The notes under the pieces: generated by a model
Database searches by the model: none
What the model was told of the DNA's origin: nothing
The model's input: the letters and a program-made list of their open reading frames with translations, nothing else
Made by a program: the position numbers and the translations under genes
In this document: positions 4,789 through 45,611 of the stretch, in pieces
How positions within the stretch are numbered: the stretch's first letter is position 1
How the letters are laid out: every line of letters starts with the position of its first letter
From: Streptomyces tuirus
GTDB lineage: Bacteria > Actinomycetota > Actinomycetes > Streptomycetales > Streptomycetaceae
Reading direction: 5' to 3'
DNA length: 64,000 nucleotides
Assembly (NCBI RefSeq): GCF_014701095.1
Contig: NZ_AP023439.1
Location: forward strand, 5,692,001 to 5,756,000

Positions 4789-6330
4789 GTGTCGGCCAGC
4801 ACATCCCGTACGCTCCCGCCGGAGATCGCCGAGTCCGTCTCTGTCATGGCGCTCATTGAGCGGGGAAAGGCTGAGGGGCAGATCGCCGGCGATGACGTGC
4901 GTCGGGCCTTCGAAGCTGACCAGATTCCGGCCACTCAGTGGAAGAACGTACTGCGCAGCCTCAACCAGATCCTCGAGGAAGAGGGTGTGACGCTGATGGT
5001 CAGTGCCGCAGAACCCAAGCGCACCCGAAAGAGCGTCGCAGCGAAGAGTCCCGCCAAGCGCACCGCGACCAAGACGGTCGCGGCCAAGGCGGTGACCACC
5101 CGGAAGGCCACTGCCACCGCCACGCCGGCGGCGCCCGCCGACGAGCCCGCTGCCGAGGAGGAGGCACCCGCCAAGAAGGCGGCTGCCAAGAAGGCGACCG
5201 CCAAGAAGGCGGCAGCGAAGAAGACCGTCGCCAAGAAGACGGCGGCCAAGAAGACCGGCGCCAAGAAGGACGACGCCGAGATCGTCGAGGAGGAGGTGCT
5301 CGAGGAGGCAGCCCCCGGCAAGGCCGGTGAGGAGCCCGAGGGCACCACCGAGAACGCGGGCTTCGTGCTCTCCGACGAGGACGAGGACGACGCGCCTGCC
5401 CAGCAGGTCGCCGCCGCCGGAGCCACCGCCGACCCGGTCAAGGACTACCTCAAGCAGATCGGCAAGGTCCCCCTGCTCAACGCCGAGCAGGAGGTCGAGC
5501 TCGCCAAGCGCATCGAGGCGGGTCTGTTCGCCGAGGACAAGCTGGCGAACGCCGACAAGCTGGCCCCGAAGCTCAAGCGCGAGCTGGAGATCATCGCCGA
5601 GGACGGCCGCCGCGCCAAGAACCACCTCCTGGAGGCCAACCTCCGTCTGGTGGTCTCCCTGGCCAAGCGCTACACCGGCCGCGGCATGCTCTTCCTGGAC
5701 CTCATCCAGGAGGGCAACCTCGGTCTGATCCGCGCCGTCGAGAAGTTCGACTACACCAAGGGCTACAAGTTCTCCACGTACGCCACCTGGTGGATCCGTC
5801 AGGCGATCACCCGCGCCATGGCCGACCAGGCCCGCACCATCCGTATCCCGGTGCACATGGTCGAGGTCATCAACAAGCTCGCGCGCGTGCAGCGCCAGAT
5901 GCTCCAGGACCTGGGCCGCGAGCCCACCCCGGAGGAGCTGGCCAAGGAACTCGACATGACCCCCGAGAAGGTCATCGAGGTCCAGAAGTACGGCCGCGAG
6001 CCCATCTCCCTGCACACCCCGCTGGGCGAGGACGGCGACAGCGAGTTCGGTGACCTCATCGAGGACTCCGAGGCCGTCGTTCCGGCCGACGCGGTCAGCT
6101 TCACGCTCCTGCAGGAGCAGCTGCACTCCGTCCTGGACACCCTGTCCGAGCGCGAGGCGGGCGTCGTCTCGATGCGCTTCGGCCTCACCGACGGTCAGCC
6201 GAAGACCCTCGACGAGATCGGCAAGGTCTACGGCGTCACGCGCGAGCGGATCCGCCAGATCGAGTCCAAGACCATGTCGAAGCTCCGCCACCCGTCGCGT
6301 TCGCAGGTGCTGCGCGACTACCTCGACTGA
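4789..6330 (+). CDS. hrdB: RNA polymerase principal sigma factor HrdB
   Basis: A 513-residue group 1 sigma-70. The GTG at 4789 is chosen because GAGAGG lies 7 bp upstream and the N terminus then reads [16 protein letters not shown], as in HrdB. Residues 1-65 are region 1.1-like; 75-210 are an Ala/Lys-rich spacer with repeated KKAAAKKA blocks and acidic runs, typical of actinomycete HrdB. The catalytic core follows: region 1.2 ([16 protein letters not shown]), region 2 with the promoter-melting stretch [18 protein letters not shown], region 3, and region 4.2 with TRERIRQIE. It directs vegetative transcription and is essential. The final six codons and stop are the left attachment site of an integrated element, and the reading frame is unaltered. 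Confidence 0.98.
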
Positions 6331-6331
6331 G
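6310..6331 (+). repeat. attL: 22-bp direct repeat at the 3' end of hrdB
   Basis: Bases 6310-6331 are identical to 45590-45611. They span the last hrdB codons (encoding LRDYLD), the TGA stop and one base beyond. Identity stops on both sides (G against A before, T against C after). With an integrase 113 bp downstream, this is the left junction of a site-specific insertion. Confidence 0.92.
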
Positions 6332-6443: not shown

Positions 6444-7340
6444 ATGGTCATATATCCGGACATAGCCTCACTCCTCGACTCCTGGCTCATCCACCTCGCC
6501 GCCGAGCGGAAGAGCGAGCAGACCCTGAAGACCTACGGCGACGGGGTGCGCGCCTTCCTGCGGTGGTGTGAGGTGGCAAAATGCCCACCGATCCTCGACC
6601 GGCCCACGGTCAACACCTTCGTCTCCGCCCTGCTGGATGGGGGCGCGGAGGCGTCCACCGCACGGTCCCGGCAGCTGGCCGTACGCCGCTTCAGCGCCTG
6701 GTTGGCCGACGAGGGTGAGATCGACACCGACCAGCTCCTGACCCTCAAGCCGCCGAAGCTCGACCACAAGGTCGTCCAGGAGCTGGACGACGACCAGCTC
6801 CGAGCATTGATCAAGGCGTGCAAGGGCAAAGATCTTCGCGACCGGCGCGACGAGGCGATCGTCCGCCTCATGGCTGAGACCGGGGCGCGAGCCGGCGAGA
6901 TCGTCGGCATGAGCGTCGCCGACATCGACCTGAAGCGAGGGGCGGCCATCGTGCGGCGAGGCAAGGGAGGAAAGGGTCGCACCGTGCCCGTCGGCCCGCA
7001 GACGGCCCAAGCGCTTGACCGGTACATCCGGGACCGCAGGACGCACCGGCTCGCCCAGACGCCTGCCCTGTGGCTCGGCGAGCGAGGCAAGGGCTTCACC
7101 TATGACGGCCTGTATGTCGCTCTGAGGTACCGCGCTGACCGGGCCGGGATCCCGGACTTCCACCCGCATGTGCTCCGCCACACCGCCGCTGGGCGATGGC
7201 TCGCCGCCGGGGGAAGCGAGGGCGGTCTGATGGCCATGGCGGGTTGGTCGCGGCGCGACATGATCGACCGCTACACCCGTTCGACGTCCGAGCGTCGCGC
7301 GGCCGAGGAAGCCCGCCGACTCAACCTAGGGGACCTGTGA
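6444..7340 (+). CDS. int: Tyrosine recombinase (integrase)
   Basis: A 298-residue XerC/D-type site-specific recombinase. Residues 1-90 form the SAM-like core-binding domain; the catalytic domain follows. Visible active-site residues are R149 (ETGARAGEI), the H-x-x-R box at 242-245 (HVLRHT), W268 in the second H/W position (MAGWSRRDM) and nucleophile Y277 (IDRYTRST). It is the first gene inside attL and reads away from hrdB, so it is almost certainly the enzyme that inserted the element at the hrdB 3' end. It is shorter than many actinomycete ICE integrases (about 380-450 residues) and lacks an obvious arm-binding domain. No excisionase is recognised next to it. Confidence 0.93.
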   Translation: MVIYPDIASLLDSWLIHLAAERKSEQTLKTYGDGVRAFLRWCEVAKCPPILDRPTVNTFVSALLDGGAEASTARSRQLAVRRFSAWLADEGEIDTDQLLTLKPPKLDHKVVQELDDDQLRALIKACKGKDLRDRRDEAIVRLMAETGARAGEIVGMSVADIDLKRGAAIVRRGKGGKGRTVPVGPQTAQALDRYIRDRRTHRLAQTPALWLGERGKGFTYDGLYVALRYRADRAGIPDFHPHVLRHTAAGRWLAAGGSEGGLMAMAGWSRRDMIDRYTRSTSERRAAEEARRLNLGDL

Positions 7341-7767: not shown

Positions 7768-8073
7768 ATGACCGCGCGTTCCATGAGCGCTGCTGAGCGC
7801 TCCCTGCGAGCTCAGATCGCCGCCCATACGTTGTGGGCCAACTGCGACGACCCCTCCGCACACACCGCCCCTGCTCGCAAGGCGTTCCTCGACCGCTTCG
7901 AGCGTGAGGTGGATCCGGACGGCACCCTCACCACCGAAGAGCGCGCACGCCGTGCTGACCACGCACGGAGGGCGTACTTCAAGCGCCTCGCTCTGGCATC
8001 CTCACGAGCACGCGCTGCCAAGGCCGCCGTCCGCCGGGCCACCAAGGGCGGAGGTGGCCGCGATGCCGCCTGA
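7768..8073 (+). CDS. Small conserved phage/plasmid-type protein
   Basis: A 101-residue, strongly basic, Arg/Ala-rich helical protein (SAAERSLRAQIAAHTLWANC near the N terminus). Similar sequences are common in Streptomyces prophages and integrative elements, as far as I recall, always without known function. An AGGA lies upstream of the ATG, and a perfect 12-bp palindrome (ATCCTTAAGGAT, 7740-7751) lies in the 134-bp gap before it, a possible operator or promoter element. Its end overlaps the start of the next gene, so the two are probably co-translated. Confidence 0.6.
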   Translation: MTARSMSAAERSLRAQIAAHTLWANCDDPSAHTAPARKAFLDRFEREVDPDGTLTTEERARRADHARRAYFKRLALASSRARAAKAAVRRATKGGGGRDAA

Positions 8074-8935: not shown

Positions 8936-9233
8936 CCCCTAACTCCAGCTGCCTGCAGAAGGGAATTCCAGTGACGGACTAGCAGAGCAAAAGGAGCGAC
9001 GCCCGGACGGCACCCCCGGCATGGATGCATTCCTGCCGGGGTGGGCTCGGGGCCGCCCAGGGGAACTGCGGCGGGTTCGTCGTAGCCCCGTCAGGGGTGC
9101 CTGGCCAGGTCGGCAACGAACGCCTACGCCGGAAGAGATTTATTCGGTCGACGACCAGACGGTGTCGGTCATGCGCCGGTGAAGTAAATTTCCGCCCAGG
9201 CTCTCTAGCGGCTCATCGCGCGTCACCGCCCAC

Positions 9234-9429
9234 GAGTCGCCCAGATACAAGTCAAACCGCGACTCGATTATAAAAATCGCGTCCTCCGAATGTGACAGTC
9301 GCAAGTCGGAGTCGCAGGCGACGACAGGCTCTGACCTGCGGAGTCGCAAAGGAGTCGCATGAGAGTCGCAAATACCAGTCACAGAATCGCAGGCTTCACC
9401 CCCGTCTATATATAGACGGGTGAGTCGCG
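9234..9429. repeat. Iteron array with palindrome: probable replication origin or operator
   Basis: GAGTCGCA occurs at 9309-9316, 9341-9348, 9352-9359 and 9363-9370, spaced 32, 11 and 11 bp. Related copies lie at 9234 (GAGTCGCC), 9297 (CAGTCGCA), 9384 (GAATCGCA), 9422 (GAGTCGCG) and, inverted, at 9259-9265. A perfect 20-bp palindrome with a TATATATA centre occupies 9401-9420. Another GAGTCGCA is at 11219-11226, just after the downstream ATPase gene. Iterons plus an AT-rich palindrome before a replication-type ATPase gene suggest an origin; repressor binding is the alternative. The rest of the 8936-9653 gap shows no gene. Confidence 0.65.
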
Positions 9430-9653
9430 ATTGACCGATGACGGCGAAGGGTGATGACACTAAAGAATCTTGGAAAGAACTTTCCGGAGGCGCTTCACCT
9501 AAGCAAAGGAAACGGTAATAATTGCGATTATGGGTCGTGCCAGCGCTCTGGCCGGCCTAACAACTTCATGGCGAATACCCGCGCGCCATGGGTCCCCCAT
9601 CGGCCGCCGCCCCTTTGCGACGGGCTTCGGCCGACGTGCGCAAGGAGAACGCC

Positions 9654-11204: not shown

Positions 11205-11245
11205 ACCGGGCCGAGGGGAGTCGCAACCCCTATGACGCCCGCGCG

Positions 11246-11277: not shown

Positions 11278-12833
11278 TTCGCGCGCCCTTTTGGTTAAGG
11301 GATAGGAATGATCCAAATGGCCATCGAAGGGCTCCGCATGGCGCCCCATCGCTCCAAGATCCATGACGCCGTCATGAACCCGGTCATCGCCGAGGCGCTT
11401 CGCTGCCGCATGAGATGGCGCCGCTGGAGGAACCCATGGATGGCTTCGTCTGTCATCAGGCCGAGTGGGCGGTCGTGGCCAACTGTGGCATCTGTCCGAG
11501 TGAGCCCATTTGGACTCGGATCTAGGAATCGAAGGTGGAGTGGTCGATTCGCCTATGTTTTTGGCCCGGGGAGAGAAAAAGCGACGCGCGGGGTCGCAGG
11601 CGGAAGCGCGTGTACGCCCGGGCTGTACCCACCCCCCTACCCCCTCGGGGGTGGGGGCCTTGGTCGACCTCTTCATAGGGATTCCTCAGGGCGCCGGGGG
11701 CCAGGTCGGACCGAGCTCCTCGGGCTGAGTCCCACGCTCAGACACGGTTCGACTTCCTTCTGCCTCAACGGATCGCCACCTGAGCCCGGTGACGCCACAG
11801 CGAGGGACCTACCAGAGACCAGGGGCGGGGGCAGCCAGGCGTCCGTGCCGCCGATCGGTCGAGGTATGGACGGACAGTGGACGTCGGCCAATGACCCTGC
11901 AGCGCGCATTCCAATCGGCGTCGCTCGCAGCCGCGAAGGGGGTGCAGACGGCATAGACGACGGCTGCCATCGCGGCGACGCTGATTGCGACGGTGCATCG
12001 GTCGACGAGCGGATGGAACGGGCCGAACAGCCATTGGGGGGCAAATCAATATTGCTCAGCGGATTCGGAGTCATCATCTTCAGTGCGTGAGACAGTGCTG
12101 AAGTGCGAAATTAACGAAGAAGATGAATTTGAAGTTGAAGGTTTTCAAATTGGAAAAGAGATTTCAATTCAACTTTTGGAAGCAATTCAACGAATCATTC
12201 ATTCAATGAGGCGAACGACAGGTAGTGGTAAATGGTCAGCATTGGATACATGGAGCCATCTCGGGCGTAGCCATGGCGGTGGCCACATCGGTGATGGTGG
12301 CGATGCAGGTACTGCTAACCGTGCAACGGCTGGGCTGGCGATGGCAGTAGCACTACCAAAGAAGACTCCGCATTCGCGCTTCAAAGTCGAACGTCGAGGT
12401 GAAGCGCCGGGGTGACAGGGCGCTGCTGATTGGTGAGTATGTGAGTAAGCGTCTGAGCGTCGAGCAGAATGAACACGTGATCACATGAGAATTTGGAGAA
12501 CGCAACACAGGGTAACGTTCTTCGACATCACCAGGTCGAGATCTCGACCTCGGTCGTGCTATTGGGGACTCGCTTGAACTTCGGCTATAGGCACTCACGT
12601 CCTGGCACGCCGTCCACCGGTTGCGGCCCTTGACCGCCGAGGGGGGCTCAGTCGATTCGGCGGCAGGCGTACCGAGCCATCAGCGATGATGTTCCTCTCC
12701 AGTGAGCCCAGCCTGCATAAGCAGGTTCCCTCGCTTCCGCGAGACGAAGATCGCCCGCCCCGCCAGCGCCGGCGGTGTTGCGGGGCCAGGGCCAACTCAC
12801 AGAGCCGAGCCCTCGCACATTAGGGTGCGGCAT
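11278..12833. other. 1.55-kb stretch without a convincing gene
   Basis: Reading frames here are long only because GC is high, and none shows a recognisable protein. A C-rich/G-rich hairpin lies at about 11632-11658. Around 12105-12240 the base composition drops sharply and contains repeated TTCAA blocks. The end of the stretch holds the promoter region of the HAD gene at 12834. It may be a junction between element modules or the remains of lost genes. Confidence 0.5.
12087..12415 (+). CDS. Possible small foreign gene in an AT-rich island
   Basis: From GTG 12087 a 109-codon frame begins VRETVLKCEINEEDEFEVEG and continues with FQIGKEISIQLLEAIQRIIH, an acidic then amphipathic stretch that looks like real protein and uses A/T-ending codons unlike its neighbours. 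After about residue 50 the frame returns to high GC and low-complexity sequence. No ribosome binding site stands out and no family is recognised. It could equally be a truncated import. Confidence 0.22.
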
Positions 12834-13508
12834 GTGCGGCGCCCTCTGGTTCTCTTCGACCTCGACAACACCCTCCTGGACCGGCGGGGAACGCTCGCCG
12901 ACTGGGCCACCGAGTTCACCGCCCGGCATGGTCTGGAGCACGAGGAGCAGACGCTCGTCCTAGGGATGGTGGCCGAGCGTGCCTATCCCTCCACTTTTGA
13001 CACGATCCGAGCCCGGTACCGGCTGCCCATGTCGACGGCGGAGTTGTGGGGCGCGTACTGCACTGAAATCGCGACCATGGTGTCGTGCCCGCCCGAGGTT
13101 CTCGACGGCTTGGACGAGCTGCGTGCGGCCGGATGGCGAGTGGGGGTGGCGACCAACGGTGCGATGGACATCCAGCACGCCAAGCTGCGGGCCACCGGTA
13201 TCTCCGAGCGCGTGGACGGCGTCTTTGTCTCCGAGGAGGCCGATGCGCGAAAACCGCAGACCCGTCACTTCGCCCTGGCGGCGGCCCGCTGCGGCACCGT
13301 GCTGTACGACGGCGGCTGGATGGTGGGCGACAACCCAGTCAACGACATCGGCGGCGGACGCTGTGCTGGGTTACGCACCATCTGGATCAAAAACGACCGC
13401 CCCTGGCCGCCCGACGATCCCGGGCCGGATCACACGGTGCCGCATGCACGCGCCGCCATCGACCTGCTGCTTCTGCACTCTGCCGACCACACGAGGACCA
13501 CGACATGA
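12834..13508 (+). CDS. HAD-superfamily hydrolase
   Basis: About 224 residues from GTG 12834 (AGGG 8 bp before); GTG 12825 is also possible. HAD motif I is LFDLDNTLLD near residue 6, with both Asp nucleophile/acid residues present. Motif II is VATNG, motif III Lys is in ARKPQ, and motif IV is VGDNPVNDIGGG. The helical cap between motifs I and II makes it a subclass I phosphatase. It likely dephosphorylates a small metabolite. It overlaps the next gene by four bases (ATGA) and opens the metabolic cluster of the element, where two APH-like kinases and a histidine phosphatase suggest phosphorylated intermediates. Confidence 0.85.
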   Translation: MRRPLVLFDLDNTLLDRRGTLADWATEFTARHGLEHEEQTLVLGMVAERAYPSTFDTIRARYRLPMSTAELWGAYCTEIATMVSCPPEVLDGLDELRAAGWRVGVATNGAMDIQHAKLRATGISERVDGVFVSEEADARKPQTRHFALAAARCGTVLYDGGWMVGDNPVNDIGGGRCAGLRTIWIKNDRPWPPDDPGPDHTVPHARAAIDLLLLHSADHTRTTT

Positions 13509-14362
13509 CGGTCACCATCGGGCTGCTGCACCCCGGCAGCATGGGAGCCGCGTTCGGCGCCCAACTGCGCACCCGCGGGCACGTCGTGCTGTGGTGTCCT
13601 GACGGACGCAGCGACGCAACCCGCAGTCGGGCCGAGCAGTCGGGCCTCGAACCCGAAGCACTCCCCGAACTCGTGTCCCGCTCCGACGTCCTGCTCTCCC
13701 TATGCCCTCCGGCCGCAGCCGAAGAGACTGCCGCCCAGGTAGCCGAACTCGGCAAGGGCGGCGCGGGCACGATTTATGTTGAAGCGAACGCCGTGTCGCC
13801 GTCGCGCGTGCAGCGCATCGCCGATCGCCTGGACCCGATGCCGGTCATCGATGCCGCCGTGGTCGGATCGCCTCCGGTGAGCGGCAAGTACCCGACGCTC
13901 TATCTGTCCGGCCCCAGCAAGCAGGCCGACCGGATCGCCGAACTCTTCGCCGGCACCGATGTGCGACCCCACGTCCTGGGCGACAGCATCGGCAAAGCCT
14001 CCGCCCTCAAGCTCACGTACTCCAGCTACCAGAAGGTCTCCCGCGTGCTGGCCGCCGTGGCGTACGGGGCAGCCGAAACGTACGGCGTCGCGGACGAGCT
14101 ACTGGAGATCGCAGCCAAGCGCACCCGCAGCTACCTAGTCGAGACCGACTACATCCCCAAGACCGCTGCCCGCGCCTGGCGTTGGGGCCCAGAGCTTGAG
14201 GACGCGGCGGCATTGCTCGCCGACGCCGGGCTTCCGGACTCTCTCATGCACGCCGCTGCCGCAACGCTCGCGCGGTGGGACAACAACCGGGACGAGCGCC
14301 TGGACATTGCCGGCGCGCTGAAAGCCCTGCGCGCACAAGGGAACCTGGACAGCCCGAGTTGA
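13505..14362 (+). CDS. NAD(P)-binding beta-hydroxyacid dehydrogenase-like protein (DUF1932)
   Basis: A 285-residue protein; ATG 13505 overlaps the HAD stop. The N terminus carries a Rossmann glycine motif (IGLLHPGSMGAAFGAQL, G-x-x-x-x-G-x-M-G) and the conserved substrate-binding stretch (EANAVSPSRVQRIAD) seen in 6-phosphogluconate/beta-hydroxyacid dehydrogenase relatives. The putative catalytic Lys is in GKASALKLTYSSYQK. The C-terminal helical half resembles DUF1932. It should oxidise or reduce a hydroxyacid or imine, substrate unknown. With the HAD gene it forms a two-gene unit that converges on the two kinase genes after a 37-bp gap. Confidence 0.82.
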   Translation: MTVTIGLLHPGSMGAAFGAQLRTRGHVVLWCPDGRSDATRSRAEQSGLEPEALPELVSRSDVLLSLCPPAAAEETAAQVAELGKGGAGTIYVEANAVSPSRVQRIADRLDPMPVIDAAVVGSPPVSGKYPTLYLSGPSKQADRIAELFAGTDVRPHVLGDSIGKASALKLTYSSYQKVSRVLAAVAYGAAETYGVADELLEIAAKRTRSYLVETDYIPKTAARAWRWGPELEDAAALLADAGLPDSLMHAAAATLARWDNNRDERLDIAGALKALRAQGNLDSPS

Positions 14363-14399
14363 GCTGGTCGCGTCCGCTGCGTCGATGACGTCCTTGCCG

Positions 14400-14960
14400 T
14401 CAGAAATGAGGTGACGACGCGCGAACGATCGCATCGATCCTCTCCGCGGCTTCACGGGGTGCCGTCGCTTCCGTCTCCACGCGCAGCTCCCAGCGAGCCT
14501 GCGGATGAGCTGCGAGATCGGCCTGTGTGGCGTCCCACGCGGCCAGCCGGGCCGCCGTGTCGGTGTCGCCTCGCTGCGGTGAGCGTCGGGCGGTGGTCTC
14601 TTTGGAACACCACAGCAGAACGCTCACCCAGTGCGCCGGGTAGAGCGCGGTCACTTGCTCCATCCCCACCATCTGACCGAGGTGGACGACAGGGATCCTG
14701 CCGCCCTCCATGGCCTGGTCGAGGCCGGGTCGGTCGACGACGTAAATGTTGCCGTACCGGTCGTTGCGGTAGATGACGTCGCCCCGTGCCTCCAAGGCAG
14801 CCAGCTGCTCGGGTGTGCCCATGCGGTAGCCCTGGGTCTTCCCGGTCCCGAGCTTCAGTCGGGTGAACGGCACGTACCGCGCGTCGAGTTCGGTGAGTGC
14901 CGCTGTGATCGTGTCCTTGCCTGCCGCTGGCGGCCCGTACAGCAGGATGCCCTGGCTCAC
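14400..14960 (-). CDS. P-loop kinase-like ATPase
   Basis: A 186-residue protein whose GTG start at 14960 overlaps the stop of the upstream gene by four bases (GTGA). Walker A is GPPAAGKDT at residues 8-16, directly after the first beta strand, as in nucleotide and small-molecule kinases of the guanylate/shikimate kinase type. A lid-like Arg-rich stretch (KETTARRSPQRGDTD) follows near 135. It probably phosphorylates a small molecule or nucleotide. It is coupled to the XRE-kinase gene before it, and the pair runs against the rest of the cluster. Confidence 0.72.
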   Translation of the reverse strand: MSQGILLYGPPAAGKDTITAALTELDARYVPFTRLKLGTGKTQGYRMGTPEQLAALEARGDVIYRNDRYGNIYVVDRPGLDQAMEGGRIPVVHLGQMVGMEQVTALYPAHWVSVLLWCSKETTARRSPQRGDTDTAARLAAWDATQADLAAHPQARWELRVETEATAPREAAERIDAIVRASSPHF

Positions 14961-15997
14961 TGGAACACCGTCCCGAAAACCTGGCGTACCTGGTCCGTGA
15001 GCGAAATCGCAGCGCCGAGCCGGTTGTCGACAACCAAGTGCGGTACGACGGGTCGCAGTTCGAGATCTATACCCGCGGCGTAGGTGTCCCAGTTCTGGAG
15101 TTTCCAGCTGTCCCGGGCGGCGGACCGGAAGCTGATGTATTCGTGCATCGTCTCGATGTCGCACTGGATCCACACGACAACGACGGTGACCCCGCGTGCT
15201 TCACAACGGTTGATCAGACGGCGCATCCACCTGGCATCGGTGGCCTCGGCGATGAATGGGGCGCAGAGTACGGTGCTGATCGCGCAGTCGATGTTCGCGT
15301 ACGCGGTCTCCAGCAGGCACTGGTACTCCAGCGGGCGGACCTTCTCCCGGTAGAGCTCGGTGTGCCGGTCATTCGGGTCGCTGCCCATCTCTACGAGAAG
15401 GCGCTCGACGAGGGGGCGTGTGATCGGGTCCTTATCGAGGACGGGCCAGCCGGTGAGTTGGGAAATGAAGCGGGCAAATTCCGATTTCCCGCTGCCCGCG
15501 TAACCACCGACCATCATCAGTGTGGGCTTGTTCGGGTCGCCGCCGGTGTGGCGGCGCTTCCAGGCGTCGAGGATCCGCTGCTGTACGCCCTGCCCATCAG
15601 TGTCCTCCGTACCGGGCGCGAGTTGGAGCAGCGCGCGCTCCACAGCCAGCACGTGGGCTCCGTTGTGCGGTTCGCTCGACGCGGTGAACTTGAGCTTCCT
15701 GGCCTCGTCGGGCAGCGCGTTGCGGAAGCCGAGCTCAGGCTCGGTCGCGCGGTACAGCAGGCAGTACGCGCGGCGGTAGTGCGGTCCGGGATAGACCTCA
15801 CCCTGCTCGTGCTGCCACAGCGTCTGGAAATTGGCGGCAGGCACCGCGAGTCCCGCCGCCCGGGCCACCTCACGCAGTTGCTCGCCGGCGCCTTCGAGCG
15901 TCAGGCCGTGGGCTTCGCGTTGCTGTCTCAGCTTGTCCGGACGCCAACCCGGGCGACTTTTCCCCACTGCTCCTACCGCCTGCCCATCCCTGGTCAT
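14957..15997 (-). CDS. XRE-type HTH fused to a P-loop kinase domain
   Basis: Taken from ATG 15997 (346 residues); ATG 16024 adds nine residues, and neither has a strong ribosome binding site. Residues about 20-100 form a helix-turn-helix of the Cro/XRE kind (WRPDKLRQQREAHGLTLEGA, with a later WQHEQGEVYPGPHYRRAY). The C-terminal part has Walker A GGYAGSGKSEFAR near 170 and a second acidic/Arg-rich segment (VVVVWIQCDIETMHEYISFR), like zeta-toxin or chloramphenicol-phosphotransferase-type kinases. I infer a regulator whose kinase domain either senses a metabolite or acts in the pathway. It diverges from the APH/SAM-synthetase operon, so it may control that promoter region. Confidence 0.7.
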   Translation of the reverse strand: MTRDGQAVGAVGKSRPGWRPDKLRQQREAHGLTLEGAGEQLREVARAAGLAVPAANFQTLWQHEQGEVYPGPHYRRAYCLLYRATEPELGFRNALPDEARKLKFTASSEPHNGAHVLAVERALLQLAPGTEDTDGQGVQQRILDAWKRRHTGGDPNKPTLMMVGGYAGSGKSEFARFISQLTGWPVLDKDPITRPLVERLLVEMGSDPNDRHTELYREKVRPLEYQCLLETAYANIDCAISTVLCAPFIAEATDARWMRRLINRCEARGVTVVVVWIQCDIETMHEYISFRSAARDSWKLQNWDTYAAGIDLELRPVVPHLVVDNRLGAAISLTDQVRQVFGTVFQ

Positions 15998-16208
15998 GAT
16001 CCGGAGCTTAAGTCTGCCTGTCATGAACCCGTGTGTAAGCGGATGTTGAAAAGTCGGACCTACCGGCCATGAGCTGCTGATGAGCAGCTTCGGCAACAGC
16101 TTGTGATACTCCGCACACCTCCGAGCCGCTGTCATGGTCACACCGACGCGGTCACCGCATGGTCCGCCTCGGGCTCCAGTGTCCGTACAGATCCGAAGGG
16201 GCTCCGCG

Positions 16209-16364
16209 ATGGCTGTCGACGTCGCCGTTCTGCTGATCCTCGGCATCGTGATCGTCTTCTTGTGCCGAGGAGGTGGGCTCAAGGCTGGTCACGCCCTGGT
16301 GTGTGCGCTCTTCGGCCTGCGAAGGACGTCACGGCGTCGGTGGCGGGCCTGCTGTCGGGGCTGA
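16209..16364 (+). CDS. Small membrane protein, probably frameshifted
   Basis: A 51-codon frame with one strong transmembrane helix (VAVLLILGIVIVFLCRGGG) and then GHALVCALFGL. After this the frame becomes Arg/Cys-rich junk, while the next frame reads AKDVTASVAGLLSGLRL to a stop at 16370-16372. Inserting one base near 16318-16321 would give a continuous 55-residue protein of the sort common in Streptomyces plasmids and integrative elements. So it is either broken or a sequencing error. It sits in the 370-bp divergent promoter region before the APH gene, whose GTG overlaps the shifted frame's end. Confidence 0.45.
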   Translation: MAVDVAVLLILGIVIVFLCRGGGLKAGHALVCALFGLRRTSRRRWRACCRG

Positions 16365-16368
16365 GGCT

Positions 16369-17328
16369 GTGACCACGCCGACGGATTCGCACCCGTCTAC
16401 CCATTGGAATGACTCCGCCGACAGGAGGCGACCTGTGCCCGAGGGCGACGTGACGTTACGGACGGCCGAGCTCCGGTACGGTCCGTTCGATTGTGGGACC
16501 ACCAAGCCGTACTCCAGGACGCAGCGAGCAGCCGATGGCGGTTCTCTGCTGAAGGTCTACGTTGGGATCGATCCCCAAGGCCGGCGGCGTCGTGAAGTGC
16601 AGACGGTCCGGCGTGCGGCTCACTGGGGTCTGTCAGTACCGGAAGTCCTGGCGACGGGCAGGTGCGACGCCGGATCTTGGTCGGTGTTCCGTGTGCTGCC
16701 AGGCGTGCCATGCAGCGTCCGTACGGGCCAGGCGGTCGAGGAGTACATCGGCCACATCCTTGGTCTGGCGGAGAGGCTTCACCGGTCTTCACCCGGGCTC
16801 GCACCTGGTTCCGGCTGGACCGATGAAGGAGGGCACCCTGCGCTCCAGCACCATCTCCTGCTCAACCAGCTCTCTCCGCGCTGCCGACTGCGACCGTGGT
16901 GGGCAGCCTTGGCAGAGGCACTCCAGCCTCTTCAATCGCATCCGGTCGTCCACCTGCACGGGGATCTCAAGCCCGAGCATCTGTTGGTCGCCGACCACCA
17001 GCTGAGCGTCGTCGACTGGGAGGCCAGTGCCCGCGGGCCCGCCGTCGTCGACTTCGCCGACGTGGTGTTCCACCTCGTACGTGACTTGCTGTACGCGGGC
17101 GTGAAGCCCGGCCGTGTCCCGATCGATCTCATGATCCGCCTGCCGTTCTGCGGTCCTGTTCTGGCCTGGCGCCTGCTGCTGTGGCTTGATCGCCGTCGCC
17201 CTCAGGACATCGACCTCATCGCGGTCCGCGATATCCACCGGCTTGCCGCGGAGGACCAAGCCCCAGCCGCATACGCGTCGCTGACTCGGACTGTCTCGGC
17301 TCTGCGTGCTGCCGGCGTCCCGCGCTGA
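16369..17328 (+). CDS. Aminoglycoside-phosphotransferase-like kinase
   Basis: About 319 residues from GTG 16369; the open frame upstream is low-complexity. The C-terminal lobe has the APH catalytic loop VVHLHGDLKPEHLLVADHQ (H-G-D-x-x-x-x-H in place of N) and the metal-binding D of SVVDWEASARGP. An N-lobe strand with a Lys (SLLKVYVG) fits the ATP-binding site. The N to H change in the catalytic loop deserves attention but occurs in some fructosamine and thiamine kinase relatives. It probably phosphorylates a hydroxyl of a small molecule. It is the first gene of the seven-gene forward operon that ends at 23592. Confidence 0.8.
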   Translation: MTTPTDSHPSTHWNDSADRRRPVPEGDVTLRTAELRYGPFDCGTTKPYSRTQRAADGGSLLKVYVGIDPQGRRRREVQTVRRAAHWGLSVPEVLATGRCDAGSWSVFRVLPGVPCSVRTGQAVEEYIGHILGLAERLHRSSPGLAPGSGWTDEGGHPALQHHLLLNQLSPRCRLRPWWAALAEALQPLQSHPVVHLHGDLKPEHLLVADHQLSVVDWEASARGPAVVDFADVVFHLVRDLLYAGVKPGRVPIDLMIRLPFCGPVLAWRLLLWLDRRRPQDIDLIAVRDIHRLAAEDQAPAAYASLTRTVSALRAAGVPR

Positions 17329-17406
17329 CTCCTCGCTCACCGCTCGACCAGGCGCGTCGACGCCTGCACTCATCCACGTTTCGTCCACGCCAAACGGGAG
17401 TTCGTC

Positions 17407-18657
17407 ATGCCTCGTACCAGCACGATCATCGGCAACAGCAACCTCGTCATCGACACGGCCATGGCCAGACCGGACGCGACGTCCATCGTCGAACGGAAGG
17501 GCCTCGGTCACCCGGACACCCTGGCCGACCACCTCGCCGAGCGGCTTTCCCGCGCCTACAGCCACCACACCGTCGAGCGCTTCGGTGCCGTGCTGCACCA
17601 CAACTTCGACAAGCTCGCCCTCCTCGGGGGTGCGAGCGAGGTCCGGTACGGCGCCGGCAGGATGACCTCCCCGGTCAGGGTGCTCGTCAACGGCCGTGCC
17701 GCGCCCATGTGCGGCGGGGAGCGAATTCCCGTCGAGGAGATCGTGGAGGCCGAGGTGCGGGCGTTCTTCGCCGAGCGGCTCCCCGAGGTCTCGGACCATC
17801 TCGACATCGTCTTCAACATCACCAGCAATTCGAGCCCGGGCGCCGTCCTCACGGGCGACGCGGTGCCTGACCGGACGCGTTGGTTCAACCCGCGTTCGAT
17901 CGAGGACCTGCGGGAGCGGCGGGTGCGGCTGTCCAACGACACCTCACTGGGGACGGGCTGGGCACCGGAGAACACCTTCGAGTCGTTCGTCCGCCAGCTG
18001 GTGAACCACTTCTCCGGGGACAGCGAGTTCACCCGTACGCACGCCTGGTGCGGGTCGGACGTCAAGCTCATGGGCTACTGGGACGGGGAGCAGGCTGACG
18101 TCGTGCTCTGCGTCCCGCAGAAGTCGCGGTTCGTCGCCAGCCGGGCCGAGTACGTGCGGAACGCGGAGAGCGTGCTCGCCGAGTGCCACAGGCTCGCGGG
18201 CCTCCGGCTCGCCGGTGCCGAGGCGCGGTTCCGACTCAATGCACGCGACGTACCGGAGAAGGACGAGCTGTACCTCACCTACACCGGCAGCTCGATCGAG
18301 TCCGGCGACGAAGGAGTCGTCGGCCGCGGTAACCGTGTCAACGGGCTCATCACGCCGCTGCGGCCGATGAACCTGGAGGGCGCCAACGGCAAGAACCCCG
18401 TGTACCACGTGGGCAAGCTCTACAACATCGCCGCGCGACGGCTCGCCGAGCGGCTGCACGAGGCGACCGGGGAGCACGCCGAGGTCCACCTGGTGAGCGC
18501 TACCGGGCAGCGCCTCGACCAGCCGTGGCGCATCCTCGTCCGCCTGTCCTCTCCGGACGCCGAGGTGGACAAGGTCCAGGCGCTGGTGGAGGAGGCGCTG
18601 GGAGCGTTTCCCGCCCTCACCGACGAACTGGTCTCCGACGGGATTGTGCTGAGCTGA
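17407..18657 (+). CDS. Archaeal-type S-adenosylmethionine synthetase
   Basis: A 416-residue protein with GGGAG before ATG 17407. It carries the archaeal MAT family signatures (PF01941) rather than those of bacterial Met[19 protein letters not shown] near residue 28, [17 protein letters not shown] near 300, then [20 protein letters not shown] and VYHVGKLYN. The length also fits archaeal MAT. It makes SAM from methionine and ATP, or possibly an analogue. A dedicated second SAM synthetase in a metabolic cluster suggests high SAM demand or an unusual methionine-like substrate; no methyltransferase for small molecules is seen in the cluster, which is odd. Its stop overlaps the next start (TGATG). 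Confidence 0.92.
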
Positions 18658-19583
18658 TGGTGAAGCGGACGCTTGGAGAGGTCTCCCGGGACTGCCGACG
18701 GCGCCTGATCACCCACTATGGCACCCAGGTCTCCGGGTGGCTCGACACCGTGCCGGCGCTGCTGGATCAGGCGGCGGAGCGCTGGAAGCTCACGCTCGGC
18801 GGGTACCACGACGCCGGACACGCCTCCGTGATCGCCACGGCCGACACCCTCGACGGGCGTCCGCTGCTCCTCAAGGCATGGGCCGACCCTGCCCGGTTCC
18901 ATAACGAAGTGACCGCGCTGAGCCTTTGGGCGGGCGGTCCCACGGCGGACGTTGTCGAGGTGGCGGACGACCTCGCCGTGGCGGCCCTGGAGATGATCAG
19001 TGGCCAGCCGGGCGGCGGCAAGCGGCCGCCACGGGAGCTGCAAACGGTGGCCGCCGCCCTCCAGGGCTTGCACACCTTCGGCCGTCTTCGTCGTCGACCG
19101 CGTGATCTCCCGCTTCTGGCCACATACCTGCACCAGGAGATACGCCCCCGGATCTGGCGCAGATTGGAGTCGGCCGATCTTGGCCCGCGGCACGACCTCG
19201 CCTACGCGGTCCTCCCCGAGCTCATGACCTTGGAGGAGGACGACGGCCACGCGACGGTCCTGCACACGGACCTCTACCGCGAAAACGTGCTGTTCGACTG
19301 GCTGGGGCACCCGAGGTTCATCGATCCTCTTCCGATGGTCGGTGACGCCGCCTTCGACTGGGCCTTCTGGACCGTGTACTACGACCTCGGGCACGGCACG
19401 GACACTCGCCTGGCCACAGCCGCCCGGATCGCCCGCATCCCCGTCCCCGTGCTCACACCGTGGTGCCGAGCCCTGGCAGTGGACGGTCTCCTCTACTACC
19501 TCGAAACCGCTGATCCACGCGCACCACGGATGGCCGACGTCCTCGCGTGGCTGTCGGCACCAACCCCAGGGACCCGACCATGA
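18657..19583 (+). CDS. APH(6)/hydroxyurea-kinase-like phosphotransferase
   Basis: A 308-residue protein; ATG 18657 overlaps the SAM synthetase stop by one base. The catalytic loop is VLHTDLYRENVLFD and the following metal site is FIDPLPMVGDAAFDWAFW, the I-D-P-x-x-x-x-G-D form of streptomycin 6-kinase and hydroxyurea-phosphotransferase relatives (PF04655). An N-lobe Lys sits in GRPLLLKAWADP. It may act in the pathway or give self-resistance by phosphorylating the product, as StrA/AphD-type enzymes do in streptomycin clusters. It is coupled by an ATGA overlap to the histidine phosphatase gene. Confidence 0.82.
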   Translation: MVKRTLGEVSRDCRRRLITHYGTQVSGWLDTVPALLDQAAERWKLTLGGYHDAGHASVIATADTLDGRPLLLKAWADPARFHNEVTALSLWAGGPTADVVEVADDLAVAALEMISGQPGGGKRPPRELQTVAAALQGLHTFGRLRRRPRDLPLLATYLHQEIRPRIWRRLESADLGPRHDLAYAVLPELMTLEEDDGHATVLHTDLYRENVLFDWLGHPRFIDPLPMVGDAAFDWAFWTVYYDLGHGTDTRLATAARIARIPVPVLTPWCRALAVDGLLYYLETADPRAPRMADVLAWLSAPTPGTRP

Positions 19584-20296
19584 CGACTCACGTCCTCCGC
19601 CACGGGCCGACCGATTACAGCCGGCGCTATCTCGTCAACGGCGACCCGGCCAAACCCATCCACCTCAACGACGACGGTCGGCGGGCGCTGACCAGAGGCT
19701 GGAGGAGCTTGCCCCTCCACCAGGTGAGAACGTGGATGGCCAGCGAATTCCCCCGCGCCCAGCAGACCGCGAACCTGTTGATGGGGGTTCCCCGACCGGA
19801 ACTGATCACCGACGCGCGGCTGAAAGAACTCGACTACGGGGACTTCGAAGGGGGTCCGTTCCTCGAATACGCCTCGTGGCTCGACGGACACGGCGCCGAC
19901 GACCGACCGCCCGGCAGCGCCGAGTCGCAGAGCGAGGGAATCCGCAGGATGCTCACGGGGGTCCTCGCGGCTCTGGACCACTCTGGCCCTCGCGTTCTCG
20001 TGGCCCACGGCCTGCTGGTCTCCGTACTCCTGTGGCACCGCGGACGGACTCCGGACCAGGCCATGCCCCTGTTCTTCCCCGAGGCACCGTACGTCGAGCC
20101 CATCGCCATCCCTGACGAGGAGTTGCCGGAAATCATTGGAACACTGATGAACGATCTTGAAGTGGGCGCAAAGCGCTGTGCCGCCGACACCGGTGACGTG
20201 AGGATATTCCGGAACGGGAACGGTTCGCCGGTTGCTACCGTCGATTCCGCATCCCCATCCCACTCGCAGGATCAGAAGGATCTTCCTCATGCATGA
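19580..20296 (+). CDS. Histidine phosphatase (phosphoglycerate-mutase-like)
   Basis: A 238-residue protein beginning MTTHVLRHGPTDYSRRYLVN. The catalytic RHG motif with H7 is at the N terminus, the second Arg is in ASEFPRAQQTANLL, the acid is in KELDYGDFEG, and the second catalytic His is in RVLVAHGLLVSVLL. The branch 1 histidine phosphatase fold is therefore complete through about residue 190; the last 40 residues are Ser/Asp-rich and probably flexible. It likely removes phosphate from an intermediate made by one of the neighbouring kinases. The start overlaps the previous stop, and the end overlaps the SerRS start by eight bases. Confidence 0.86.
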   Translation: MTTHVLRHGPTDYSRRYLVNGDPAKPIHLNDDGRRALTRGWRSLPLHQVRTWMASEFPRAQQTANLLMGVPRPELITDARLKELDYGDFEGGPFLEYASWLDGHGADDRPPGSAESQSEGIRRMLTGVLAALDHSGPRVLVAHGLLVSVLLWHRGRTPDQAMPLFFPEAPYVEPIAIPDEELPEIIGTLMNDLEVGAKRCAADTGDVRIFRNGNGSPVATVDSASPSHSQDQKDLPHA

Positions 20297-21581
20297 TGCC
20301 CGCGCCCTGATCGACATGGGTGCCGAAGCGGTTCGTCGGCTCGCTCGTCGCGGTTACACCCTGGACCTGTCCGAGCTGGAGTCCCTCTACTCTCGGCGCA
20401 ACCAGAACATCCGCTCGGCCGACGAGATGCGGGCAGAGTCCAAGCGAGTGGCAAGCGAGGTCCAGCAGACGGCCAAGCAGGGCGGTGACATCAGCAAGCT
20501 CAAGGAGCGCGCCCGCGAGCTGAAGGAGCAGATCCGCGAGATCGAGGCCGGCCAGGAGCAGATCGAGGCCCAGCTTCGCGACCTGCTCCTCAGCATCCCG
20601 AACCTGCCGGACGACTCGGCCCCCGACGGGGACTCGGAGGAGTTCGCCGTCGAGATCCGGCGCGTCGGCACGCCCCCCGCGTTCCCGTTCGAACCGAAGG
20701 ACCACGTCGACATCGGCGAGGCCACCGGCATCCTCGACTTCGGCAGGGCCACGAAGCTGTCCGGCCCGCGCTTCGCGGTCTCCCGCGGTGCCGGCGCAGC
20801 CCTGGAACGCGCCCTGGCCACGCTCTTCCTCGACCTCCACACCCGTCGGCACGGCTACGTCGAGTACTCGGTCCCCTACCTGGTCACCCGCAAGACCATG
20901 ACCGGTACCGGCCAGCTCCCGAAGTTCGAGGAGGACCTGTTCAAGACCGGCGTCGCCGACCGCGACCTGTTCCTCATCCCGACGGCCGAGGTCCCGCTGA
21001 CCAACCTCTACGCCGACGAGATCATCCCTCCGGCGGAGCTGCCGCTCGCGCTCACCGCGCACACCCCGTGCTTCCGGTCCGAGGCAGGCTCGTACGGCCG
21101 CGACACCCGCGGCCTGATCCGCCAACACCAGTTCGCCAAGGTCGAGATCGTCCGCATCGTCGACCCGGCCGACGCCGACGCCGAACTGGAGATGATGATT
21201 GGCCACGCCGAGGCGTGCCTGAAGGAACTCGGCCTCGCCTACCGCGTCATCAAGCTGGCCGCCGGCGACACGGGCTTCTCCGCCCAGCTCACCTACGACA
21301 TCGAAGTCTGGATCCCGAGCCAGAACACGTACCGCGAGATCTCCTCGGTCTCCAACTTCGGCACCTTCCAGGCCCGTCGGGCGAACATCCGGACCCGCGG
21401 CGAGGACGGCAAGCCCAAGCTCGCCGCCACCCTCAACGGCTCCGGCCTGCCCATCGGCCGCACCCTGGCCGCTCTCCTTGAACAGTGCCAGCAGCAGGAC
21501 GGCTCCATCCTCCTGCCCGAATCCCTCGTCCCGTACCTCGGCTTCCGCCGGATCTCGGCGGACGGAACACCGGAGGCATAG
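20289..21581 (+). CDS. serS2: Seryl-tRNA synthetase, second copy carried by the element
   Basis: A 430-residue, apparently complete class II SerRS. ATG 20289 is chosen for the AAGGA 8 bp upstream. Residues 1-100 form the long tRNA-binding coiled coil. Motif 2 is FRSEAGSYGRDTRGLIRQHQ, and motif 3 is NGSGLPIGRTLAALLEQCQQ followed by the DGSILLPESLVPYLG tail; the serine-binding TAEVPLTN and the SSVSNFGTFQARR stretch are present. Usual SerRS read SSCSN(C)xDFQARR, so the Cys-less version is a small divergence. The symbol is mine, since the housekeeping serS lies elsewhere. In valanimycin biosynthesis a SerRS paralogue (VlmL) supplies Ser-tRNA to a transferase, and in the albomycin cluster a SerRS gives resistance; either role fits here. 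Confidence 0.93.
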   Translation: MHDARALIDMGAEAVRRLARRGYTLDLSELESLYSRRNQNIRSADEMRAESKRVASEVQQTAKQGGDISKLKERARELKEQIREIEAGQEQIEAQLRDLLLSIPNLPDDSAPDGDSEEFAVEIRRVGTPPAFPFEPKDHVDIGEATGILDFGRATKLSGPRFAVSRGAGAALERALATLFLDLHTRRHGYVEYSVPYLVTRKTMTGTGQLPKFEEDLFKTGVADRDLFLIPTAEVPLTNLYADEIIPPAELPLALTAHTPCFRSEAGSYGRDTRGLIRQHQFAKVEIVRIVDPADADAELEMMIGHAEACLKELGLAYRVIKLAAGDTGFSAQLTYDIEVWIPSQNTYREISSVSNFGTFQARRANIRTRGEDGKPKLAATLNGSGLPIGRTLAALLEQCQQQDGSILLPESLVPYLGFRRISADGTPEA

Positions 21582-22603
21582 TGCTCGTCGGCGTCTGCGA
21601 CTTCCCTGGTAGCTACGCCTTTCCACCCGCCGGCTACGGCGGAATCGAACGATGGCTGTGGGCGGTCGCCACAGGCGCCCGAGCCGCAGGCGCCGACGTA
21701 CACCTCCTCGGGCCGGGCTGGCTCACGGACCTGGAACACGACTGGGTCCGCAAGCCGGTCCGCCTGGAGGACATCACGTCCGGAACGCTCGCCGAGCGCG
21801 AACTACGGGACACGGGATACGACCTCCTGGTCGTGGGCCATGAGTACCCATCGCTTCCGGCCTGGACCCGCACATGGAGCGAGCTGGACTGCGACGTCGC
21901 CACGTTCCAGCACTCGCCGGTCTTCCAACACGCAGCTACTGCCTTCGACGGCCAGCGATCGCGGCTCTACTGCTACTCGCCCGAGATGATCGAGCGCTAC
22001 GGCAACCACCGGCCGATCCCCGAGCTCGCCGTTCACCTCGGCCTTCAGGAGGAGGAGTCTCCAGCCACCGCTGGTACCGACCTCGTCTGGCTCGGCCGGG
22101 TTGACGAGGACAAGGCTCCCCACATCGCGGTGCGAGCGGCACAGATCATTGGCCGCCGGATCCGAATCGTCGGTCCGATCTTCGACAAGGAGTACGTGCG
22201 CCGCCACGAGGACCTTCTCGGCGCCGAGCATGTGGAATGGATCGGGGAACTCGGTGGCACAGCCAAGGCGGCCACGATCGCCGAGGCGTCCGTGTTCGTC
22301 TATACGTACGCCCGCGCGTACGTGGAGGCCGGTGCCGCCGTCTTCGGTGAATCCCTCCGCGCCGGCACTCCCATGGCCGCTCTCACCTGGCGGGAGGGGA
22401 CATGCGCCCAAGCGGCCCTGTGCAATGAGACCGGCGCGGTCACCATCGTCGACCCGCGGGAGGACGATGAGACGGCGGCACGGAGGCTCGCCGACTCGAT
22501 TCAGCAGGCGGAAGATCTCGACCATCGCCGGGTCCAGGCCGTCGGGATGCAGCGCTTCGACCCGGTCCGCCACTTCCAGACGATGGCGACCCGCCCATGC
22601 TGA
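21581..22603 (+). CDS. GT4-type glycosyltransferase
   Basis: A 340-residue protein; GTG 21581 overlaps the SerRS stop (TAGTG). The N terminus has the glycine-rich acceptor-side motif FPPAGYGGIERWLWAVATGA typical of GT4 enzymes. The donor domain starts with TDLVWLGRVDEDKAPHIAV (the G-R-x-x-x-x-K pattern) and contains an E-x7-E-like segment around VFGESLRAGTPMAALTWREG. It probably transfers a sugar from a nucleotide-sugar donor to a small molecule or an aminoacyl/nucleoside intermediate. It is co-translated with SerRS and with the AlaRS-like gene, so its acceptor is probably made by them. Confidence 0.82.
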   Translation: MLVGVCDFPGSYAFPPAGYGGIERWLWAVATGARAAGADVHLLGPGWLTDLEHDWVRKPVRLEDITSGTLAERELRDTGYDLLVVGHEYPSLPAWTRTWSELDCDVATFQHSPVFQHAATAFDGQRSRLYCYSPEMIERYGNHRPIPELAVHLGLQEEESPATAGTDLVWLGRVDEDKAPHIAVRAAQIIGRRIRIVGPIFDKEYVRRHEDLLGAEHVEWIGELGGTAKAATIAEASVFVYTYARAYVEAGAAVFGESLRAGTPMAALTWREGTCAQAALCNETGAVTIVDPREDDETAARRLADSIQQAEDLDHRRVQAVGMQRFDPVRHFQTMATRPC

Positions 22604-23592
22604 CCCGCGCGCCCCGCGCGGTCGGGGACGACTTGGCCCGGCAGATACCAGGGGTGCTACGTACCGCGTTAGGCCCGCACTGGGAGTTCACGGTCGACGG
22701 CCGGAACATCGAGGTTCGCCACCCGAACCGCGGTACCCCCTACAAGCCACCGCGTAGACGGCCCTCATGGAGGGAATTGCTCGACTCCCTGGAGACTGGC
22801 TTCGCGCAGGACGGAGCCGCACGTGACAACTGCCTTCCCCTCCTCTGGGGCCGGGAGACCGAACTGACCATCTCCGCGGTCCAGGCACTCGACCCATTCC
22901 TCAAGGGCGGCCAACCCCGCACGTACCGAAGCGGATTCCTTCCCCAGCCGGTCGTGCGCTTTACGGGCCAGCGCGACGCGACCGGCCACTTGAAGGACGG
23001 CTTCTTGACCTCCTTCGTCAACATCTCCCGGGTCCAACGCATAGGCAGCCTGGAGGAGTACGGCGCCATCCTCGACGGCTGGCTGACAGTCCTCTCCCGA
23101 CTCGGCTTCCATGCCCGGCACCTGAGCATCAAGGGCAAGCTGACCCCATGGCGCCGGCGACAGGTCGAGGGCATCACACTGCGCTTCCGCCACCTGGACC
23201 GCACTCTTGGCGACATCGTCCTTCTGTGGAACACCGAACACCCGGACCGCATGGCCGCAGACCTCGGCAGCGGACTGGAACGTCTGGCATGGGCTCGCGC
23301 CCAGGAGCCCTGGCACCAACTGATCTACGGCAGCTTCGCCATGGCTGCGCCGCCGACCACCCTGGATGCCATCCGTACGGCCACGCTCCTACTCGGGCAT
23401 GGGATCACCCCAGATGCCCGAGGAGCAGGGGGCATCACCCGGCGGGTCATAGGCGGGATCGACCCAGACGCCGCACGCCTTGGCGTCGGAGCCTTGGTCC
23501 GGAAGATGTACGGCTACTGGTCGCTCTTCAGTATCCTGCACGCACCGTGGCCAGAGATCGCTCGCGCTATCGAGGAAGAAATAGGCCCGTAA
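22597..23592 (+). CDS. Stand-alone class II aaRS-like protein (alanyl-tRNA synthetase-like core)
   Basis: A 331-residue protein whose ATG lies inside the end of the glycosyltransferase gene (7-bp overlap). Several segments recall the AlaRS catalytic core: the middle strand region (GFLTSFVNISRVQRIGSLEE) and especially DLGSGLERLAWARAQEPW near residues 222-240, which parallels motif 3 D-T-G-x-G-L-E-R-L of AlaRS. The tRNA-binding, editing and C-Ala domains of AlaRS (over 850 residues) are absent. I infer an amino-acid-activating or transferring enzyme that forms an aminoacyl adenylate or uses aminoacyl-tRNA. The assignment rests on motif likeness only, and motif 2 is not clear to me. Confidence 0.55.
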   Translation: MLTRAPRAVGDDLARQIPGVLRTALGPHWEFTVDGRNIEVRHPNRGTPYKPPRRRPSWRELLDSLETGFAQDGAARDNCLPLLWGRETELTISAVQALDPFLKGGQPRTYRSGFLPQPVVRFTGQRDATGHLKDGFLTSFVNISRVQRIGSLEEYGAILDGWLTVLSRLGFHARHLSIKGKLTPWRRRQVEGITLRFRHLDRTLGDIVLLWNTEHPDRMAADLGSGLERLAWARAQEPWHQLIYGSFAMAAPPTTLDAIRTATLLLGHGITPDARGAGGITRRVIGGIDPDAARLGVGALVRKMYGYWSLFSILHAPWPEIARAIEEEIGP

Positions 23593-32571: not shown

Positions 32572-32580
32572 GACGGCGGC

Positions 32581-40415: not shown

Positions 40416-40477
40416 CAGGCTCTCTCCTTTACTCACTGCTGAACTGCCTCATCGTGCTCATGTGCGGGTCGACGGCG

Positions 40478-41817: not shown

Positions 41818-42450
41818 GTGGCGTACTCAACCCGCATGGCTGCCGCTCTTTCCGGAGCCACAGTCGGGCAACTGCGCACGTGGCGGCAAGACCGTGGAAA
41901 CGGGCCAATCCTCCGCCCTGAACTGGCCACCAAGCCAGCCCTGTACTCGTTCCGTGACGTGCTCGCGCTACGAGCGTTCGCAATCCTCCGCCAGGACGTG
42001 TCGCTCCAGAAGATCCGCAAAGCCCTGGCCACGCTGAAGGGGTTCGGAGAAATCGAGCACCTGTCGAGCTATTCCCTGGTGGCCGACGGCGACTCGATCG
42101 TCCTCGTAGGCGACGACCACGCCACCGACCTCGTCAAGCACCCAGGGCAGCGGGTTATCGCCACCATGGCCGACATCCTCCAGGAGTTCGCACCTCGCGC
42201 CGGCGTCGTGGTTCCCCACCTTCTGCGACCCAAGCACCACGTCACTGTTGACCCTGACACACAAGGTGGGCAGCCGGTCATCACCGGCACCCGTGTCCCC
42301 TTCGACGCCGTCGCAGAACTGGTGGAGGACGGCATCCCTCCCGAGAAGATCGCCGATTACTACCCTGGCGTGACAGCGGACGCTGCCCGTGACGCGGTCT
42401 CGTTTGCCCTCTACGTTGACAGCTACAGCCCGGGACCGCGCGCTGCCTGA
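41818..42450 (+). CDS. DUF433-type antitoxin with MerR-like N terminus
   Basis: A 210-residue protein starting at GTG 41818. Residues 1-70 look like a MerR-type DNA-binding domain (SGATVGQLRTWRQ, then YSFRDVLALRAFAILRQ). The C-terminal 75 residues are DUF433-like (QPVITGTRVPFDAVAELVED and the following helices), as in VapB45-type antitoxins. The next gene, a DUF5615 PIN-like protein, starts inside its stop codon (TGATG), the usual order for this toxin-antitoxin class. It probably represses its own promoter in the 41,546-41,817 gap, shared divergently with the kinase gene. Confidence 0.8.
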   Translation: MAYSTRMAAALSGATVGQLRTWRQDRGNGPILRPELATKPALYSFRDVLALRAFAILRQDVSLQKIRKALATLKGFGEIEHLSSYSLVADGDSIVLVGDDHATDLVKHPGQRVIATMADILQEFAPRAGVVVPHLLRPKHHVTVDPDTQGGQPVITGTRVPFDAVAELVEDGIPPEKIADYYPGVTADAARDAVSFALYVDSYSPGPRAA

Positions 42451-45589: not shown

Positions 45590-45611
45590 CTGCGCGACTA
45601 CCTCGACTGAG
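45590..45611 (+). repeat. attR: 22-bp direct repeat, duplicated hrdB 3' end
   Basis: Identical to 6310-6331. It encodes a leftover LRDYLD-stop of hrdB with no gene attached, followed 18 bp later by a strong terminator that fits the native hrdB terminator. It marks the right junction; sequence after it is core chromosome. Confidence 0.92.

Follow-up and report, generated by a model that had tools for sequence, protein, structure and literature searches.

A candidate replication origin beside a RepA-like helicase gene in an integrated island at the sigma factor gene of Streptomyces tuirus

In PICIs (SaPIs and Escherichia coli PICIs), an integrated island encodes an initiator helicase whose iterons lie beside the helicase gene. 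PICI origins are described as directly following the 3′ end of the initiator gene, and those of the E. coli PICIs have an A+T-rich region between two sets of iterons (PMC6092414); the C-terminal domain of SaPI Rep is described as recognizing iterons downstream of its own gene, as is that of SCCmec Cch2 (PMC7581432). The SaPI Reps named there are of the DUF927 or D5/primase type (PMC7581432). Satellites with capsid genes are also described: the presence of an integrase together with a capsid gene defined the candidate PICIs of mycobacteria, of which the four mapped examples rely on tRNA genes or on a serine integrase (PMC10654092), the Streptomyces satellites MulchRoom and MiniFlayer carry capsid genes and no recognizable primase (PMC10690885), and cf-PICIs encode a full head and packaging set (PMC10690885). 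Here, we describe an iteron-like array in an island of Streptomyces tuirus within "the window," by which we mean the whole 64-kb stretch of DNA that was analyzed, and compare it with these systems.

The host genome (7.56 Mb) is a single contig. In the window, the final bases of a sigma factor gene (gene end at 6330) plus one base beyond form one copy of a 22-bp direct repeat (attL, 6310 to 6331, plus strand), which recurs exactly at the right island end (attR, 45590 to 45611, plus strand). These repeats of the sigma gene end at 6310 and 45590 give an element of about 39.3 kb, so that an integrase at a specific att site, a feature of PICI type, is present in the island. From family knowledge and gene order, we take the sigma gene to be hrdB, encoding the housekeeping sigma factor. 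It is followed by a tyrosine integrase (6444 to 7340, plus strand; PF00589 and PF02899, with relatives at hrdB/sigA), small genes that include one for a conserved island-family protein (7768 to 8073, plus strand; phrog_2842) adjoining the integrase in most related loci, the helix-turn-helix (HTH) protein P0001 (8063 to 8935, plus strand; phrog_29861), and the AAA_25 helicase P0002. P0001, with a weak HTH_31 match below the cutoff, is a candidate regulator and might bind the repeats in place of the helicase. To the right of the island come a trypsin-like gene and one of gyrB/parE type. In all 12 same-genus loci compared (L155 to L166, a count separate from our own locus and from the other-genera loci L167 to L173), the sigma gene adjoins the trypsin-like gene without a large insert, which is the island-free arrangement; the gap is roughly 0.5 kb or less in 11 of them and about 1.2 kb in one (L155, genome G009), where it may be the remnant of an older insertion. 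Actinomycete integrative conjugative elements (AICEs) have as their hallmarks an FtsK/TraB-type transfer protein and a RepSA-type initiator. Both were absent among the island proteins scanned with Pfam and PADLOC, a scan that passed over some small frames, and no conjugation family was found among the scanned proteins.

The array lies at 9234 to 9429 (plus strand), with nine copies of GAGTCGCA at no more than one mismatch: four exact copies on the plus strand at 9309, 9341, 9352, and 9363 and five one-mismatch copies at 9234, 9258 (minus strand), 9296, 9384, and 9422. The preliminary description, which had spoken of four exact and several degenerate copies, was therefore accurate on this point, and the two 11-bp gaps that it reported are real when measured from start to start (9341-9352-9363) rather than as gaps. 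It had also placed a perfect palindrome before the ATPase gene and an extra repeat copy past it, and both are there: CCCGTCTATATATAGACGGG forms an exact 20-bp palindrome at 9401 to 9420 (strandless), a possible operator or melting site, and a lone exact GAGTCGCA stands at 11218 to 11225 (plus strand), 14 bases past the helicase stop, in the position that the arrays of relatives occupy. Another one-mismatch copy lies at 11591, and a further exact copy at 19922 is probably unrelated to the array. As for the parts of an iteron origin, direct repeats are present in the window and the A+T-rich stretch is weak. The most A+T-rich 60 bp near the array (9470 to 9529, strandless; 57%), picked as the best of many windows, is a weak candidate unwinding region. 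It overlaps a match to a sigma-70-like promoter (9494 to 9522) that closely follows the array. A second promoter-like match (10/12), inside the array on the minus strand (9267 to 9296), points left and could give rise to an antisense transcript.

The clustering of GAGTCGCA exceeds chance. The total number of exact copies in the window, six against 4.64 expected, shows no excess; copies with at most one mismatch number 66 over the 64 kb (0.21 per 200 bp) versus nine in the 196 bp of the array. When the 718-bp intergenic region (8936 to 9653) was shuffled with its dinucleotides kept, four exact copies of any 8-mer were reached in 12 of 5,000 shuffles and seven copies of any 7-mer in 0 of 5,000. 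The palindrome by itself is less striking than the repeat clustering, as the window holds three perfect palindromes of at least 20 bp, CCCGTCTATATATAGACGGG among them, and 11 of 3,000 shuffles of the same region produced one. The exact tandem core (two GAGTCGCA copies 11 bp apart) occurs twice in the S. tuirus genome, both times in the array. Of 391 other genomes of the genus, two have it, at one site each, a number not above that of a reversed-pattern control; in viral contigs, the tandem pattern marked six loci, and no helicase relative lay at any of them. As a word, the array unit is private to this genome.

The protein encoded next to the repeats (P0002; 9654 to 11204, plus strand) had been called a RepA-like ATPase, a designation that its matches bear out: it matches PF13481 above the cutoff, has a RecA-type core with Walker motifs, and finds in RSF1010 RepA both the best single-unit profile match to its core among solved structures (1g8y, E 3.7e-19, with linked RecA constructs ranking above it) and the best Foldseek match (1nlf, E 1.1e-9). 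Across 23 proteins, K201 is invariant and D291 near-invariant. The AlphaFold model (23 sequences; mean pLDDT, 78.5) begins with a long N-terminal part of helices, followed by a RecA-like core and then a C-terminal domain (429 to 504; pLDDT mostly 88 to 96) that we read, from the predicted order of its helices and strands, as a winged helix. Unlike RSF1010 RepA, P0002 has extra N-terminal helices and a predicted C-terminal winged helix. In RSF1010, the iterons are bound by RepC, a protein other than RepA. SCCmec uses serine recombinases, and its Cch2 belongs to a different helicase family from P0002. Cch2 and P0002 are nevertheless alike as initiator-type helicases, the binding of repeats beside its own gene by a C-terminal domain being Cch2's feature (PMC7581432). 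The RSF1010 RepA/RecA-type core (AAA_25) of P0002 also differs from the DUF927 or D5/primase types that the same source names for SaPI Reps.

Relatives of the island were reached through its integrase. Single-protein scans of the genome and viral collections with the helicase found no relative, whereas the integrase has close relatives (E 1e-60) in 4 of the other 391 genomes of the genus, each of them following the sigma gene. An alignment of five integrases retrieved 86 relatives from genomes taken one per species, of which 80 were kept, and 10 from viral contigs. Duplicates were dropped (L054, L056, and L066, equivalent to L020, L046, and L048), L142 and L143 (26% integrase identity) were left out, and L129 is without an integrase frame. 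Integrase relatives adjoin this gene in many actinobacteria: the sigma gene lies directly upstream in 46 analyzed loci, the window included, and in 17 of these a repeat of the sigma gene end of at least 14 bp follows downstream; its distance, limited in relatives by the locus ends, is 3.0 to 10.7 kb in 16 of the 17, mostly near 10 kb, and 39.3 kb in the window island. Iterated profiles found an AAA_25 gene in 17 of the 46 loci, a capsid gene in 13, and both in 6, counting loci on cut contigs. Pfam confirmed the capsid in genomes G061 and G448, and PHROGs added a capsid in four further loci and a head maturation protease in one. Judged by their gene content, the sigma-adjacent relatives of about 10 kb with integrase and capsid look like small capsid-carrying, phage-satellite-like elements. 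They resemble the capsid-encoding satellites described above, which are small, have a major capsid gene, and mostly carry an integrase, and differ from the cf-PICIs in that a full head and packaging set was not seen in the sigma-site relatives. They also differ from MulchRoom and MiniFlayer, in which no primase is recognizable, and from the mapped mycobacterial examples in using the end of a sigma gene rather than tRNA genes or a serine integrase. The window island is unlike the capsid-encoding satellites in that no capsid gene was detected in the 64-kb window or among the island proteins scanned. Neither the att repeats at hrdB nor this kin family, often with phage capsid genes, figured in the preliminary description.

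In these relatives, a scan for over-represented 7- to 9-mers showed that most AAA_25 genes have a cluster at their 3′ end. Within a fixed interval spanning 350 bp upstream and 400 bp downstream of the stop codon, an array (score ≥3) was present in 18 of 22 related islands and absent in 4, compared with 5 of 262 other genes at the same loci; at a score of ≥5, the counts were 13 of 22 and 1 of 262. The 22 exclude the window island and include loci without a visible sigma gene (cut contigs or other sites). Dropping one near-duplicate left 17 of 21, and a narrower window with the window island counted gave 15 of 23 versus 3 of 309. The score was designed after the first arrays had been seen, and the loci share ancestry. 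Bias from the choice of word is countered by the gene-end control, which was used because, in several loci, lysine-rich repeats in the coding sequence of the sigma gene dominated a ranking of windows over the whole locus. For AAA_25 genes outside hrdB, a set that had no controls, 10 of 13 had an array, some within the coding sequence (13 of 15 loci were counted, L026 and L035 being excluded because the predicted frame is on the other strand). Other large P-loop genes, in islands without AAA_25, reached a score of ≥3 in none of the five loci that have such a frame (29 examined). The array words are lineage specific, with units mostly 9 to 13 bp apart and no sharp helical phasing across arrays beyond that unit; L058 and L063 share a word and are near-identical loci. 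Word similarity tracks the similarity of the C-terminal domains (Mantel r 0.34, p 0.0002; 18 arrays), also when the ATPase core is allowed for (r 0.22, p 0.008; 18 arrays). The effect is modest, and in some pairs, such as L064/L078, the words are alike and the C-terminal domains are not.

Because in the relatives the same helicase gene has its repeats at the 3′ end, we consider it probable (about 0.62) that the array supplies the iterons of a replication origin in an integrated phage-satellite-type island, served by the island's RepA-like helicase. The integrase would excise the island as a circle; P0002 would attach to the copies of GAGTCGCA by way of its winged helix, form a hexamer, open nearby A+T-rich DNA, and start replication of the excised circle. 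As the sites lie upstream of the helicase gene, bound P0002 could also dampen the expression of its own gene. The preliminary description had suggested the origin or autoregulatory site of an otherwise non-conjugative element. This interpretation is partly supported: the relatives favor an origin-type site, and the scanned proteins agree with the non-conjugative part, but the position of the array 5′ of the gene, not 3′, would also suit an autoregulatory site. The main point against transferring the 3′ rule of the relatives is this upstream position: the window island has no 3′-end array (score 0; one exact copy at +14), and of the 23 cases it alone reaches a 5′ score of ≥3. The arrays of the relatives lie at the gene end or directly 3′ of it, the arrangement described for PICIs (PMC6092414; PMC7581432), and that of the window island does not. 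Further points against the origin reading are the four relatives without an array, the weakness of the A+T-rich stretch, the pairs in which words and C-terminal domains disagree, and a word confined to this genome. With a 3′ origin and a capsid both lacking there, we do not claim membership of the PICI family.

The upstream position of the main cluster, unlike that in relatives, means that an autoregulatory operator or binding by the HTH protein must be weighed. We think it unlikely that the array is mainly an operator, through which P0002 or another island protein controls helicase transcription, with the origin elsewhere. Its place about 230 to 420 bp before the helicase start codon, with the promoter-like match downstream and the palindrome inside, would suit such a role, as would the single GAGTCGCA copy left at the usual origin position; however, the relatives' arrays are at the 3′ end of the gene and not in front of it, which argues for an origin over an operator, and operators rarely need nine copies over 196 bp, which we count against this explanation. 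Less credible still is that P0001 binds the repeats, as a regulator or as a separate initiator, with the helicase recruited later in the manner of RSF1010. Its gene is directly upstream and has the weak HTH match, and it is in the window island that the array falls between the P0001 and helicase genes, but four more distant P0001 relatives are without an array within 500 bp (two have repeats 500 to 1,500 bp downstream), and the nearest island relative, G320, has an array and no detectable P0001 homologue. That the repeats are functionless, through chance or as a decaying remnant in a domesticated island, is highly improbable: the private word, the undetected capsid gene, and 39 kb with much cargo would fit, but the clustering beyond shuffles, the open integrase and helicase frames, and the association of array and helicase in relatives all oppose it.

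The rest of the island is occupied by other genes. A cargo block (12702 to 23592) holds HAD, DUF1932, AAA_33, phosphotransferase, S-adenosylmethionine synthetase, histidine phosphatase, seryl-tRNA-synthetase-like, and glycosyltransferase genes, and the G320 island carries a MetK 94.7% identical to that of the window island. A minus-strand defence-like cassette (23810 to 40436) comprises a UvrD-like helicase, a DruE-like protein of 2,202 amino acids, a type IIG restriction-methyltransferase-like protein, and a DrmD-like helicase; at 41818 to 42890, a DUF433/MerR-like gene followed by a PIN_10/DUF5615 gene resembles a toxin-antitoxin pair. On the G320 island contig (L053:6738-16883), the BREX/Pgl genes BrxHI, BrxD, PglZ, and BrxC lie downstream of the common cargo block, a position that in the window island is taken by a defence cassette of its own. 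Islands at hrdB may be a hotspot for defence genes.

No description of this family or its sigma-gene site came up in the literature searched, from which most subscription papers were absent. We tentatively propose, at slightly less than even odds, that a capsid-carrying satellite family across Actinomycetota targets the 3′ end of the housekeeping sigma gene and replicates by a self-targeting RSF1010-RepA-type helicase, whose winged helix would read a lineage-specific array beside its gene, helicase and array changing words together; the window island would be a capsid-less, defence-loaded descendant with its array moved upstream. If this is true, then (i) repeats at the end of the AAA_25 gene would be a predictable rule for finding the origins of small actinobacterial mobile elements, (ii) the family would provide a series of naturally occurring helicase-iteron pairs in which changes of initiator specificity could be studied, and (iii) the housekeeping sigma gene would be a landing site where satellites and defence genes accumulate.
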